DNA of 64,000 nucleotides. Origin: Psychrobacter aquimaris. GTDB taxonomy: Bacteria; Pseudomonadota; Gammaproteobacteria; Pseudomonadales; Moraxellaceae. The notes under the pieces were generated by a model. That model saw nothing but the letters and a program-made list of their open reading frames with translations. It was not told where the DNA came from and searched no databases. The DNA lies in assembly GCF_016107525.1 (NCBI RefSeq), contig NZ_JABASR010000002.1, positions 186,001-250,000 of the forward strand. The letters are read 5' to 3'. Below are positions 13,392 to 20,330 of the stretch, piece by piece (positions within the stretch are counted from its first letter, which is position 1; each line of letters begins with the position of its first letter). The position numbers and the translations under genes are program-made.

Positions 13392-16300
13392 ATGCCGAAT
13401 ACTTCTAAGAACACCTCCGATATGCCGACTGAAAACAACACCAATGTGTTTAAATCCGATGAATTAAGTAAGTTAGCAAGCCCAAATAATGATAATTCAA
13501 ATATGACGGCGAACAGTGATGAGGCGTCTTCACAGCCCGACATGGTTGTTGATTTACCAGTACTGGCTAAAGACAGTTATTATTTAAGTCGTCTCGAGCG
13601 GGAGCTGGCGCGAGCTACTGTGGCTAACAATAAAAAAGATTCTGACGATAAAGCCGATGATGGGCTAACTAAAAAACGTGCGCAGTATGAAAAAATTAAA
13701 AGCCGCTCACAGCAAGCGGTGCAGGCACGTATGGATAGCATTCCAGACAAACTGGCAGAAAAACTGAATCTTGATTTACCCGTGAGTCAACGTGCAGAAG
13801 ATTTAGTACAGGCAATTATTGATAACCAAGTCATTATTGTTGCAGGGGAGACGGGTTCTGGTAAGACGACGCAATTGCCGAAGCTGGCAATGCTGGCAGG
13901 TCGCGGTATCACTGGGCAGATAGGGCATACCCAGCCTCGACGATTGGCCGCGCGCAGTGTGGCAAACCGTATCGCTGAAGAATTGGGCGAGCAGCTCGGT
14001 AATACTGTCAGCTTCAAGATTCGCTTTAATGAGCAGGGTACGGCGCAATCTGTTGTTAAACTCATGACCGATGGTATCTTGCTGGCTGAATTGGGGCATG
14101 ATCGGTTCTTGAGTAAATACGATACTATCATTATTGATGAAGCGCATGAGCGTAGCTTAAACATCGATTTTATTATGGGGTATCTGAAAAAGCTACTACC
14201 CAAACGTCCTGATTTAAAAGTGATTATTACCTCAGCAACACTTGATACCAAACGCTTTAGTGAATATTTTAGCCGCTATGATAATAAGCTAAAACGCAAT
14301 GTGCCTGCGCCTATTTTCAATGTCGAAGGTCGTAGTTTTCCTGTTGAAGTTCGTTACCGTCCGCTTACCGATGAGCCAGTGAACAGCTCAGATGATGACA
14401 GCTACGATGACTTTGAAGAAAATCTGCCACGTGCGGTCGTTGCCGCCGTCGAAGAATGCTTTAGCGATGCACAAAATAAAGGTCATGCCGATCAAGCGGA
14501 CATTCTCATATTTGCAGCGACAGAAGCTGAGATTCGTGAGCTACAAGAGGTGCTTGAGCGTCATGGGCCAAAGCATACAGAAGTCTTGCCACTATTTGCA
14601 CGGCAGACTTATGAAGAGCAGCAGCGCATCTTTCAGCCATCAGGTCGTGGCAGGCGTATCGTTATCGCGACCAACGTTGCCGAGACTGCATTGACCGTAC
14701 CGGGTATCCGCTATGTGATTGATTTGGGTTTTGCGCGGATTTCGCGTTATTCGTATCGCTCACGCGTACAGCGTCTACCGATTGAGGCGATCTCGCAAGC
14801 CGCTGCCAATCAGCGTAAAGGTCGTTGTGGTCGTGTTGCACCAGGGGTTTGTATTCGTCTGTATAGCGAAGAAGATTTTACTGGTCGTCCGGAGTTTACT
14901 GAACCTGAAATTTTACGGACTAACTTAGCCTCGGTTATTTTACAGATGGCCAATCTGCGTTTAGGTAGCGTTGATGATTTTTCCTTTATTGAGCCGCCTG
15001 ACAGTCGCTTGGTTACTGATGGTCATAAATTGCTCGATGAGCTAGGCGCTATTACTTCTAAAAGCGAAGCAACTTCTGCTCATCAAAACAATAAGCCAAA
15101 ACCAAAAAAAGGTCTCGATCATTTAAGCCTGACGCCCACTGGGCAAAAAATGGCGCGTATGCCAATCGATCCAAGACTGGCACGTATGTTGGTTGCGGGT
15201 AGTGATTTTGATTGTATCCGTGAAATGCTAATCGTAGTAGCTGCGCTTGCTGTACAGGATCCACGCGAGCGTCCTGCCAATAAACGCCAGCAAGCTGATC
15301 AAAAGCATGCGGAATTTCGTCAAGATGATTCTGACTTTTTATTCTATCTAAGTCTGTGGAAAGCGCTATTTGAAAAAGATGAAGACGGCAATAAGTTGTC
15401 TGGTAATCAGCGAAAGCAGTTTACGAAGAAAAACTATTTGAGCTTCCCGCGTGTACGTGAGTGGAGTCAAACCCATCGTCAGTTAGTACAAATGGTCACA
15501 GAACTTAAGCTGACGGATGTTAAAGAGGCAAAAGCTACTGATAAAAATGCTTCGTTAGAAAATATGACCAGCGATCCTACCGCGATCGAAGATGAAGACC
15601 TCAAGGCCGTTAAATATGCCAATTTACACCGCGCATTATTGACAGGCTTGTTGTCTACGATTGCGCATAAAACTGAAAATCGTGGTGAATACTTAGCGGC
15701 GCGCCAGCAAAAAGCCAAAATATTCCCAGCCAGTACAGTATTTAAACAAGTACCACCTTGGGTCATGGCTTTTGAAGTGGTCGAAACCTCGCAAGTCTTT
15801 ATGCGCACTGTTGCCAAAATTGAACCTGAATGGATTATCTCAGCCGCTGGTAACTTATTAAAGTATCACTACTTTGAGCCGCATTGGTCGAAGAAGACTG
15901 GACGCGTTAAAGCCTATGCGCAGATTAGTTTGTTTGGTCTCATAATTATCAGTAAGCAGCTGACCAATTATGAGCAAGTGAACTTAGTTGAGTCACGAGA
16001 AATATTTATCCGTGATGGTCTGGTGACTGGTAACTTGGGGCGTCAAGCGCCATTCTTACAGCATAATATGGATAAAATTGCCGATATCGAGCGCATTGAA
16101 GATAAATTACGCCGCCGTGATTTGTTGGTGGATGAAGAGGCGCTGTATCAGTTTTATGATAAAAAAATCCCTGAGCATATTGCCAGTCGCAAAGCCTTTG
16201 AAGATTGGCGTGCCGAGGTTGAAAAAACCGATGCCAAATATCTATTCTTTAGCGATGATGACGTGCTCAATAGCCAAGCACCGACCACAGGCGATTTTCC

Positions 16301-17678
16301 AGAAGTGTGGAAATTGGGTGATTTAAAACTGCCGCTACGTTATGTCTTTGATCCGTCAAGCGATGATGATGGCGTGACCATTCGTGTGCCACTTGCCGCG
16401 CTACCGCAGCTTGATGCGATCGAATTATTATGGGGCGTACCGGGTTGGCGTTATGAGTTGGTGTTGCAATTGCTCAAGTCACTACCTAAGGATATCCGCC
16501 GTCAAATTGTACCAATTCCTGATACGGCCGATAGTTTGTTTGATGAATTGCAACCTGCTGGTGGACAAGGACTGCTTAAGCAGCTTTGCCAAGCGCTCAA
16601 CCGTCGCGGCGTTATGTCAGTGACGCCTGATAGCTTTAATCCTTCCAGCATTGATCGATATTTGCAGCCACAAATCTGTGTGGTCGATGACAAAAATCGT
16701 ATTATCGAAAAGGGTCGCGACCTGCAAACGCTACAGATTCGCCACGCTTCTGAGACTAGACAAGCGGTGAATGAGCAGCAAGGTACGCACACCGAATTCC
16801 CTGAGCATTTTGCCTTTAGTAAAAACCATCATAGTGCAGGAGTAGTAATGAAGCAGTTTGCTGCTTTGGTTGCTGATGAAGCAGGCGAGGCGGTATCCAT
16901 CCATCAATATACCGATGTCAATGCGGCGTTACAGGCGCACCGTATTGGCGTTTTGACCTTAATAAAAGGTAAGCTTGGTGCGAAGAAAAAACAGCTGACC
17001 AGCCAAATCGACAAAATATTTAAATTGGCGTTTGCCCCACTTGGTGATATGGAGAAGCTAAAAACCATCGTTATCGACGCGGCATTGGACGCGTCGCTTG
17101 AAGAGCATTATGTGTTATTTGATCACAGTGCTGATTTGCCTGAAAGCGCTGATGATAGTGCTGTAGCCCTTGCTGAAGAATTACCCTTTACACCAGAAGA
17201 GTACGAGAAAACCTTGGAAGTGGTTTCGGGTAACTTTCTATTGACCGGTCAAAACGTCATAAAAATCCTTAAAAATGTCTATACTCGCTGGCAACGTATT
17301 CGCCAAAGCTTACTCATGCTCGATCGAGAGGTATTTGGTGAGTCTATCGAAGATATCGAAGACCAGTTAGAAGATTTGCACTTGGCTGATTTTGTTTATC
17401 GTATGGATTATAGCCATTGGCAGCAGTATCCGCGCTATCTAGAGGCGCTTGAAATTCGTATCGAACGGCTTGAGCACAATCTCGAATCTGATCTCGAAGG
17501 AGTATACGCGCTTGATGTACATATGGAGCGGCTGGCGAATCGCGCCAATGATAAAGCCATTAGTGAGTACCGCTGGATGGTCGAGGAGTATCGCATTCAG
17601 CTATTCGCGCAACCGATGAAAACCCGTATGGCGGTGTCACCAAAACGTCTAAGCAAGATGTGGGATAAAATGAGTTAG
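13392..17678 (+). CDS. hrpA: ATP-dependent RNA helicase HrpA (DEAH box)
   Basis: At 1428 residues it is longer than the roughly 1300 of Escherichia coli HrpA. The excess is an acidic, Asn/Ser-rich leader of about 110 residues plus low-complexity inserts. Motif I is GETGSGKTT at residues 152-160, the DEAH box is residues 249-252, and an SAT motif III follows. The helicase C domain contains ATNVAETALTVPGI and QRKGRCGR. The C-terminal half carries the HA2, OB-fold and DUF3418 regions of this family. HrpA acts in mRNA processing and, in recent work on E. coli, in rescue of stalled ribosomes. The first ATG has only a weak ribosome site; ATG 13422 is an alternative. Confidence 0.95.
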   Translation: MPNTSKNTSDMPTENNTNVFKSDELSKLASPNNDNSNMTANSDEASSQPDMVVDLPVLAKDSYYLSRLERELARATVANNKKDSDDKADDGLTKKRAQYEKIKSRSQQAVQARMDSIPDKLAEKLNLDLPVSQRAEDLVQAIIDNQVIIVAGETGSGKTTQLPKLAMLAGRGITGQIGHTQPRRLAARSVANRIAEELGEQLGNTVSFKIRFNEQGTAQSVVKLMTDGILLAELGHDRFLSKYDTIIIDEAHERSLNIDFIMGYLKKLLPKRPDLKVIITSATLDTKRFSEYFSRYDNKLKRNVPAPIFNVEGRSFPVEVRYRPLTDEPVNSSDDDSYDDFEENLPRAVVAAVEECFSDAQNKGHADQADILIFAATEAEIRELQEVLERHGPKHTEVLPLFARQTYEEQQRIFQPSGRGRRIVIATNVAETALTVPGIRYVIDLGFARISRYSYRSRVQRLPIEAISQAAANQRKGRCGRVAPGVCIRLYSEEDFTGRPEFTEPEILRTNLASVILQMANLRLGSVDDFSFIEPPDSRLVTDGHKLLDELGAITSKSEATSAHQNNKPKPKKGLDHLSLTPTGQKMARMPIDPRLARMLVAGSDFDCIREMLIVVAALAVQDPRERPANKRQQADQKHAEFRQDDSDFLFYLSLWKALFEKDEDGNKLSGNQRKQFTKKNYLSFPRVREWSQTHRQLVQMVTELKLTDVKEAKATDKNASLENMTSDPTAIEDEDLKAVKYANLHRALLTGLLSTIAHKTENRGEYLAARQQKAKIFPASTVFKQVPPWVMAFEVVETSQVFMRTVAKIEPEWIISAAGNLLKYHYFEPHWSKKTGRVKAYAQISLFGLIIISKQLTNYEQVNLVESREIFIRDGLVTGNLGRQAPFLQHNMDKIADIERIEDKLRRRDLLVDEEALYQFYDKKIPEHIASRKAFEDWRAEVEKTDAKYLFFSDDDVLNSQAPTTGDFPEVWKLGDLKLPLRYVFDPSSDDDGVTIRVPLAALPQLDAIELLWGVPGWRYELVLQLLKSLPKDIRRQIVPIPDTADSLFDELQPAGGQGLLKQLCQALNRRGVMSVTPDSFNPSSIDRYLQPQICVVDDKNRIIEKGRDLQTLQIRHASETRQAVNEQQGTHTEFPEHFAFSKNHHSAGVVMKQFAALVADEAGEAVSIHQYTDVNAALQAHRIGVLTLIKGKLGAKKKQLTSQIDKIFKLAFAPLGDMEKLKTIVIDAALDASLEEHYVLFDHSADLPESADDSAVALAEELPFTPEEYEKTLEVVSGNFLLTGQNVIKILKNVYTRWQRIRQSLLMLDREVFGESIEDIEDQLEDLHLADFVYRMDYSHWQQYPRYLEALEIRIERLEHNLESDLEGVYALDVHMERLANRANDKAISEYRWMVEEYRIQLFAQPMKTRMAVSPKRLSKMWDKMS

Positions 17679-18275
17679 GATAGCGTTAGGCTTTTAGAAT
17701 GGATCAGAAAATTCGTAACCCATCGATTTTGAATGCCGTATCTCTTGGAGTTATTCCTGCTATAGTCATGTCAATATAAAAGAGATGCCGTATGACTGTT
17801 GTAAATTTGAGTAGCTTCTCTCTGCACAGGCACAGCAAGCACAAAAGTTTGTAGCAGTCACGCTGCATCATAATGTTGTTTATTTAGTATCGCCTATACA
17901 TTCTTATTCAAACAATAAAAAAGGCTGGATTAGCAATCGCTAACCCAGCCTTTTTTATTGAACTAAAGATAAATTATAGTAAAGTCCTAAATTCTGGATA
18001 CACCATATCGGCAGGAGACAAGCTATCGTTTAGCATCTCTTTATCCCTCATTTTTTTCTAATACAATGTCATATACACTGCCACCAGTCTCTGGCGTCTT
18101 CTCGCGACAAAAGAGGACGCATCATAACCAAGATGCGGGTTTTATCGTTTTATTTGTCTTATTGCACCGCTTTTGAGTGTCATTGTTTTGCTGCAACGGA
18201 TAAATCTTTTATGAAACAAAAAAGCAAAGGCGACTTCATGTGACCTTTGCTCTAAAAATTAGCACCTAGATAAAG
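17679..18275. other. Gene-free 597-base region between hrpA and a small membrane protein gene
   Basis: Apart from the terminator at 17913-17960, no coding frame is credible. The stretch 17755-17900 contains the exact inverted arms ATCTCTT and AAGAGAT and looks like structured intergenic sequence, perhaps a dispersed repeat, but no second copy is in this window. CGCATC and GATGCG form a short hairpin near 18120. Confidence 0.55.
17913..17960. terminator. 22-bp hairpin terminator downstream of hrpA
   Basis: The arms at 17913-17934 and 17939-17960 pair at 21 of 22 positions around an AATC loop. The stem includes AAAAAAGGCTGG and CCAGCCTTTTTT, giving T-runs in both directions. It is 235 bases from the hrpA stop. 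Confidence 0.85.
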
Positions 18276-18873: not shown

Positions 18874-19731
18874 CTAAATATTTAATTCGCTGCTTGGGTT
18901 TACTCCAAACAGCCGTTTATATTCACGGCTAAATTGGCTGGGACTTTCATAGCCTACTTGCATGGCGATTTGTGATACTTGTGCCTCGCCGAGTTGAATA
19001 AGCTGCCGCGCTTTCATCAATCGTAGGCTTTTTTGATATTGAAGCGGGCTTAGTTGAGTGATTTCTTTAAAATGTTGATGAAATCCCGAAACACTCATCC
19101 CGCATCGACTGGCCAAATTTTCTATGATGACTGGCTCATTTAAATGTGATTTTAGCCAATCGGTGGCTTGGGCAATACGGTGAGTGTGACTGCCGTTAAC
19201 CACCAGTTGCCGAAGCTTATGACCTTGCTGTGCTGAGAGCAAACGATAATAAATCTCTTGCTGAATTAAAGGTGATAAGAACGCTATATCATTTGGATAA
19301 TTAAGCAAGTCTATCAGTCGTTCGAATGCGGCTAATATGGTGTCTTCTAACGGCCATTTTATACCTTGATGCTCATAATCGGCATTTTTCTGAGGTGGTA
19401 TTTTTGCCATGACCTCACTAATAAGCACTAAATTTAATTTCATAGACAATACGATGACAGGCTTCTCTACAGTGGCGTGTTTGATATGCATGCTTATAGG
19501 AATATTGACAGGGCAGAACATCAGGCTGCTGTCATCAAATCTCTGGCAATCTGCACCTAAGTAAATTTCACGCGTGCCTTGTAAGACGATACATATACTA
19601 GGTTCTTGGATATAGCTGACAGTCTTTCTTGGTCTGTCGGCACAATAAAAAAACAAGCCTGAAATGTCTGATTCTATGGTTTGGTTTTTGGGTAATATAC
19701 TAAGTAGCTGCTCAACCGTTTTTGTTTTCAT
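18874..19731 (-). CDS. AraC-family transcriptional regulator (AraC_N type)
   Basis: The 285-residue protein has an N-terminal AraC_N (YqhC-like) sensing domain, with SICIVLQGTREIYLG near residue 45. Residues about 190-285 hold the double helix-turn-helix, including LASRCGMSVSGFHQHFKEIT and QIAMQVGYESPSQFSREYKR. Relatives often control nearby aldehyde or redox genes. It is divergent from ohr, and the shared spacer carries a 36-bp palindrome with promoter hexamers, so control of itself and ohr is a natural hypothesis. No ribosome site is visible; a short 5' leader of about 20 bases is predicted. Confidence 0.9.
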   Translation of the reverse strand: MKTKTVEQLLSILPKNQTIESDISGLFFYCADRPRKTVSYIQEPSICIVLQGTREIYLGADCQRFDDSSLMFCPVNIPISMHIKHATVEKPVIVLSMKLNLVLISEVMAKIPPQKNADYEHQGIKWPLEDTILAAFERLIDLLNYPNDIAFLSPLIQQEIYYRLLSAQQGHKLRQLVVNGSHTHRIAQATDWLKSHLNEPVIIENLASRCGMSVSGFHQHFKEITQLSPLQYQKSLRLMKARQLIQLGEAQVSQIAMQVGYESPSQFSREYKRLFGVNPSSELNI

Positions 19732-19752
19732 GATTTATGCTTATTTTATAAT

Positions 19753-19788
19753 TTGCCTAATCATATAAATATTTATAGGATTAGGCAA
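19753..19788. promoter_or_regulatory. 36-bp near-perfect palindrome with opposed promoters, araC/ohr spacer
   Basis: The arms TTGCCTAATC (19753-19762) and GATTAGGCAA (19779-19788) are exact complements. The centre ATAAATATTTAT is itself palindromic, so 17 of 18 base pairs are symmetrical. On the minus strand TTGCCT, a 17-base spacer and TATGAT form a good sigma-70 promoter for araC. On the plus strand TTGCCT, 17 bases and TAGGAT form a weaker one toward ohr. The sequence and spacing are directly visible; binding by a regulator is inferred. Confidence 0.65.
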
Positions 19789-19916
19789 GGATTCTGTAGT
19801 AATGCTCTACCAGATTAGCGTGTTCACTTCTATAATGATGGCATCAAAACGCAGCAAGATTGATTTGCAGCGTATTGCACAATACCAATAACACGCCAAT
19901 CCATAAGGAATATATG

Positions 19917-20330
19917 ATGAAAATTTTCTATAAAACGCGAGCAACGGCAACGGGTGGTCGTTCTGGTCATACAGGTCTTGACGATGGTTCGCTAGGTTTT
20001 GATCTGGTCTCTTTTCAAGAAACAGACAAGGAAGGTGTGAACCCAGAACAGCTTTTTGCAATGGGTTACGCGGCTTGTTTTGATAGTGCTTTAAACCTGA
20101 CCGCCCAGCAAATGAAATTGCCAATCACTGCCTCAAAAACCTCGACCCAAGTGGGTATTGGTATGAAAGCTGATGGTAGCTATAACCTAGATATAGATTT
20201 GTATGTTGAAGTGTCTGGCATTGATGAAGCTCAAGCGCAAACACTGGTCGAAACAGCTCATCAAGTTTGCCCATACTCTAATGCCACACGCGGCAATGTC
20301 GATGCACGTTTGCATGTGACTGTGATTTAA
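19917..20330 (+). CDS. ohr: Organic hydroperoxide resistance protein (Ohr/OsmC family)
   Basis: The 137-residue protein has the Ohr layout, with the two redox cysteines C54 (YAACFDSAL) and C118 (QVCPYSNATRGN) and the N-terminal TGGRSG motif. Ohr reduces organic hydroperoxides using lipoylated partners. ATG 19917 is seven bases after AAGGA and is preferred over the adjacent ATG 19914. Ohr genes are usually controlled by a MarR-type OhrR. No ohrR is seen here; instead an AraC-type regulator is divergent. Confidence 0.93.
   Translation: MKIFYKTRATATGGRSGHTGLDDGSLGFDLVSFQETDKEGVNPEQLFAMGYAACFDSALNLTAQQMKLPITASKTSTQVGIGMKADGSYNLDIDLYVEVSGIDEAQAQTLVETAHQVCPYSNATRGNVDARLHVTVI

Follow-up and report, generated by a model that had tools for sequence, protein, structure and literature searches.

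A near-palindrome between araC and ohr in Psychrobacter as the probable upstream part of a YqhC-type operator

What is the function of a 36-bp near-palindrome that lies between two divergent genes, one for an AraC-family regulator and the other for an organic hydroperoxide reductase, ohr? The element, TTGCCTAATCATATAAATATTTATAGGATTAGGCAA, is situated in the 185-bp spacer between these genes in the 64-kb stretch of DNA analysed here (the window). Ohr scores 159.5 bits against its model (cut-off 88.85), and the regulator 128 bits against PF06719 (AraC_N; cut-off 24.2) and 73.9 bits against HTH_18. The regulator gene is the only PF06719 gene in the whole genome. The palindrome is very probably the upstream part of an operator for this divergent AraC_N (YqhC-type) regulator, which would activate ohr and repress its own gene.

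The symmetry of the element, reported in the initial annotation as 17 of 18 pairs, was confirmed, the sole asymmetric pair being A19763/G19778. It is far above chance expectation. In 200 dinucleotide shuffles of the 64-kb sequence, 16 or more symmetric pairs never occurred and 15 or more occurred 0.02 times on average, and 16 pairs were never reached when the surrounding 300 bp were shuffled 20,000 times. The element is the top 36-bp palindrome of the window and has a single copy in the 3.43-Mb genome, up to three mismatches being allowed. The two hexamer pairs described earlier are also present: TTGCCT, 17 nucleotides and TATGAT on the minus strand, toward araC, and TTGCCT, 17 nucleotides and TAGGAT on the plus strand, toward ohr. 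Taken alone, these promoter-like pairs are not above chance. A promoter consensus scan of positions 19720-19930 gave two sites, compared with 1.4 ± 1.2 in shuffled sequences, and of the two mirrored pairs it listed the araC-facing one alone. Elsewhere in the window, at 17919-17954, there is another palindrome (16 of 18 pairs), situated 3' of a helicase-like gene (13392-17678) and followed by T-rich DNA, which is probably a terminator.

Table 1. Positions in the window of the two genes and of the elements observed or predicted between them
Feature	Position	Strand	Evidence
AraC-family regulator, 285 aa, AraC_N (PF06719) and HTH_18	18874-19731	-	domain matches; 33% identity to E. coli YqhC
Mirrored half-site (putative), ATATGATTAGGCAAA	19752-19766	-	matrix score 14.2; 8 bp from primary half-site
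36-bp near-palindrome	19753-19788	.	17/18 symmetric pairs; single genomic copy; shuffles
araC -10, TATGAT	19760-19765	-	TANNAT in 35/38 spacers; consensus scan
Primary AraC_N (YqhC-type) half-site (putative), ATAGGATTAGGCAAG	19775-19789	+	matrix score 21.0; 12/15 identity to E. coli site
araC -35, TTGCCT	19783-19788	-	TTGCCT/TTGCCC in 38/38 spacers; consensus scan
Second, direct half-site (putative), GTAGTAATGCTCTAC	19796-19810	+	21 bp downstream; conserved block, mean 1.47 bits
Likely ohr -10, TATAAT	19831-19836	+	38/38 spacers; +56 from half-site start
ohr, organic hydroperoxide reductase (Ohr family peroxiredoxin), 137 aa	19917-20330	+	TIGR03561

A search for relatives returned 43 loci, 39 of them from Psychrobacter and four from other genera. 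The araC and ohr genes are divergent in all 39 Psychrobacter loci, and the position of the palindrome in the spacer is fixed across them; the four remaining loci are without ohr. Conservation was assessed in 38 distinct spacers, made up of 34 distinct sequences (from 40, the window included) together with those of L094, L086, L088 and L090. The set omits L087, which nearly duplicates L088, L093, which is not distinct, L089, whose spacer is deleted, and L095, which has no araC; L096 and L097 lie outside it. In the alignment of the 34 spacers the right arm of the palindrome hardly varies and the left arm is subject to drift. Beyond the palindrome two more blocks are conserved, namely GAGG..TGTTCTAAC and TATAAT. 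The strict dyad is confined to close relatives of the window. The test of symmetry was therefore replaced by a test for half-sites with an independently trained matrix. Loss of symmetry in relatives was to refute the initial annotation, and this holds for the strict dyad, but its left half persists as a half-site.

The notion of two opposed promoters within one dyad holds for one direction. The araC promoter, TTGCCY-17-TANNAT, lies within the palindrome and is conserved, its -35 hexamer being TTGCCT in 34 of the 38 spacers and TTGCCC in four. The mirror promoter toward ohr is not supported, as no more than 18 spacers have an exact TTGCCT at its place in the left arm. The element at 19831-19836 reads TATAAT in 32 spacers and TATACT in six, and this sequence, rather than TAGGAT, is the likely -10 of ohr; TAGGAT is explained as part of a half-site. 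At 19807-19813 the predicted ohr promoter shows no clear -35, but its -10 is good.

A PF06719 gene is carried by 17 genomes out of 276 in the class and by 94 out of 293 in the order. The survey comprised 106 AraC_N upstream regions (99 non-redundant), with Psychrobacter excluded and about 70 further listed PF06719 places outside the sample. The matrix converged on a 15-bp half-site, G[CG]AG[GA]A[TA][TC]AGGCAA. At a threshold set at 5% of shuffles, 70 of the 99 regions match on the antisense strand as against 7 on the sense strand, and 29 have no match. Spacings were measured from the 64 matches, out of 70, that score at least 15. A second half-site in direct orientation peaks at +21 (z 11.5 for these 64, 19 of them with a score of at least 2), and a -10-like hexamer is found at +57 in 23 and at +56 in 10 of 63 strong sites, a distance that the TATAAT of the window fits. 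The half-site, the 21-bp tandem spacing and the -10 at +56/57 form a general operator code for YqhC-type AraC_N proteins, from which targets can be predicted and which is open to test. The same half-site is present in the spacer between araC and a gene named from its translation as alcohol dehydrogenase in Marinobacter, and with an AraC_N paralogue of another Psychrobacter. A tblastn search with Ohr found none among the 106 survey loci, a weak negative because 60 of these loci reach no further than 750 bp on the upstream side of the domain and about 300 bp on its downstream side. In the titles and abstract openings of the literature matches listed, nothing was recognised as an account of ohr control by an AraC-type protein in Psychrobacter, or of a consensus for AraC_N operators.

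The sequence at 19775-19789 has the highest score of the 64 kb on both strands, although the matrix was trained without Psychrobacter, and the mirrored half-site ranks fourth in the window. The earlier claim that the element is an operator is supported. The palindrome reads as two putative half-sites in mirror orientation, one of which would at the same time be the first member of a tandem pair. The direct partner, at 19796-19810, has a weak matrix score (-7.9), and its counterparts score below 0 in most Psychrobacter spacers. It stands at the spacing of the survey peak, within a block that is conserved in the Psychrobacter spacers and reads GAGG..TGTTCTAAC in most relatives, and by its position and conservation it is a candidate second half-site. 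The full dyad, which had been taken for a departure from the direct repeats usual for AraC proteins, is real; it does not replace a direct repeat, but appears to combine one half-site of such a repeat with a mirrored copy, the direct partner lying 21 bp downstream, outside 19753-19788. A palindrome read in isolation can thus mask an asymmetric operator.

There are four exact matches to the consensus in the genome, of which the araC-ohr site alone is intergenic. The other three are inside open reading frames and have no -10 at the right distance, and no further regulon targets are therefore claimed. The stricter tandem pattern finds the araC-ohr site alone.

The regulator and E. coli YqhC (background in PMC5297802) share the AraC_N plus HTH architecture, and their identity extends over 290 aligned positions. 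The E. coli half-site in the yqhC-yqhD spacer, GGAGAAATAGGCAAG, has 12 of 15 letters, counted by eye, in common with window 19775-19789, and it is followed after 21 bp by the direct repeat GCAGAAATGAGCATT, in comparison with which the direct half-site of the window is more diverged. A mirror arm, GGAGAAATGCTACAA, is found in E. coli at the same 8-bp spacing as in the window, but is weaker (score -9.2, rank 2 of 156). A 24-bp palindrome is given for yqhC-yqhD in PMC6115493 (legend to Fig. 1) and in PMC10991953, and is accounted for by this arm. The extent of the dyad differs: that of the window includes the AGGCAA ends, whereas that of E. coli covers the inner GGAGAAAT part. The -10 of yqhD is published as CACAAT (PMC6115493), which is at +57 from the half-site when counted by eye, in comparison with +56 for the -10 of the window. 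YqhC has one genomic target according to the gSELEX report in PMC8249747, and each of the two regulators has one divergent neighbouring target. In E. coli this target is the aldehyde reductases (yqhD-dkgA), whereas in the window it would be a peroxide reductase. As the predicted target is Ohr and not an aldehyde or alcohol oxidoreductase, the locus does not count as a yqhD-type operon, though its working would resemble that of the YqhC switch. The putative araC-ohr operator joins the YqhC kind with ohr as a new target, and a peroxide-defence gene is thereby tied to a type of regulator known for aldehyde stress.

The proposed mechanism is as follows. Activation of ohr would come from a dimer bound to the tandem pair (19775-19789 and 19796-19810), at a promoter with no good match to a -35. 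Together with the right arm, a protomer bound to the mirrored half-site would cover the start of araC along with its -35 and -10, and the regulator would in this way limit its own expression; it is because the two mirrored half-sites cover these elements that repression of araC is suggested. Binding by the AraC_N protein, activation of ohr and autorepression are thus predicted from the arrangement of the sites, and by analogy the inducer may be an electrophile, a lipid peroxide or an aldehyde. A more elaborate version is possible, though we hold it only tentatively and think it rather doubtful. The central half-site would be shared by two mutually exclusive partners, the mirrored one 8 bp upstream, which shuts the regulator's promoter, and the direct one 21 bp downstream, with which ohr is on, and on sensing an electrophile or peroxide the AraC_N dimer would leave the inverted pair for the direct one. 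Such a device would be an AraC-like light switch in compact form that needs no DNA loop, built on one AraC_N operator code that extends across much of the order and to E. coli. Within the AraC family, RhaR and RhaS have inverted-repeat operators, so that proteins of this family can bind inverted half-sites and a dyad is not out of character. Their half-site sequence and spacing differ from those of the window, where the central half-site would serve an inverted and a direct partner alike.

On the initial proposal the dyad would carry two overlapping, opposed promoters and would be bound by a dimeric repressor distinct from the AraC protein, for instance OhrR, of the MarR family. In the Ohr/OhrR peroxide switch a MarR-type regulator is encoded beside the ohr gene that it controls. 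The regulator adjoins ohr in the window too, but here it is an AraC_N protein and likely an activator. The hexamers at 17-bp spacing on both strands agree with the proposal, but the ohr-facing TTGCCT, retained in just 18 of the 38 spacers, and the TATAAT/TATACT at 19831, retained in all of them, do not. The halves of the OhrR operator are TACAATT and AATTGTA, and neither is present in the araC-ohr spacer as read by eye. The second ohr gene of the genus is about 45% identical to, and separate from, the araC-linked one; in the window's genome the 3.4 kb around it contains no AraC neighbour and no marR-like open reading frame of at least 90 aa, as judged from translations. The half-site also accompanies AraC_N genes in many genera. 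A separate repressor is unneeded, and we regard this proposal as very improbable. The probability that the element is a transcription terminator, an RNA hairpin, the end of a mobile element or a dispersed repeat is negligible: these would share its inverted symmetry, but the scan found no terminator-like site, there is a single genomic copy, and the position in the spacer is fixed in the Psychrobacter loci.

A stronger competitor, though still an unlikely one, is that function resides in the right arm and the direct site alone. The left arm would then be kept simply as the araC -10 region and would owe its likeness to a half-site to drift toward symmetry in this lineage. The araC -10 does overlap the mirror arm, and part of the conservation of the latter may therefore reflect promoter constraint: the mean information content is 1.46 bits for the -10, 1.14 for the outer mirror arm and 0.78 outside. 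The restriction of strict symmetry to close relatives is consistent with this explanation, as is the spacer of L090, which has lost both the mirror arm and the araC -10 while keeping the half-site and the ohr -10. So is the survey, where a mirror arm at 8 bp occurs in none of the 64 strong sites; the arm as a general AraC_N trait was rejected on this count. In several spacers, L007, L086 and L010 among them, the arm is present but has a low score (about 2.6 or less). On the other hand, the position at 8 bp ranks first among the inverted positions (about 160-240 in each spacer) in 35 of the 38 spacers, the exceptions being L007 (rank 2), L086 (rank 3) and L090 (arm absent). The GCAA downstream of the -10 is retained in 27 of 38, and E. 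coli has its mirror arm at the identical spacing. These observations speak against this explanation.

Close tails-out pairs above threshold were found among the 106 survey regions in L132 and L135 alone, with a 7-bp gap; L133 has a weaker one. The AraC_N spacers concerned come from a different family within the order, and the pairs are apparently a separate occurrence of the mirrored layout. The pair in L177 is 64 bp apart and that in L188 is heads-in.

An araC orthologue (at least 68% identity) is present in 52 of 105 Psychrobacter genomes, all of which also have this ohr (at least 77%); 52 genomes have neither. The one remaining genome, G006, has this ohr without the araC orthologue, and its DNA upstream of ohr contains no operator in the ohr orientation. 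A half-site, TTGCCTAATCCTGC, is found there (L095, G006:C35) about 60-100 bp 5' of ohr, in the wrong orientation for this gene and within a short open reading frame in the DNA that occupies the operator's place; it is probably due to chance. The same genome has an AraC_N paralogue with 39% identity (L091, G006:C66, upstream of 2854), whose half-site forms part of a textbook tandem, GGAGAAATAGGCAA/GGAGAAATGGGACA, 21 bp apart and facing a divergent gene set. In L089 (G090:C1:1034542) a deletion took the entire spacer and the starts of araC and ohr, the remnants of which lie head to head, so that the switch is lost jointly. The araC gene is frame-shifted in L037 (G075), where ohr and the palindrome are intact, and its alignment in L090 (G096:C4) shows some 27 inserted residues. 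One genome carries the araC-ohr pair twice in near-identical copies (L087 and L088, on G046:C1 and G046:C4), and one of these copies lies on a contig of 22.9 kb, possibly a plasmid.
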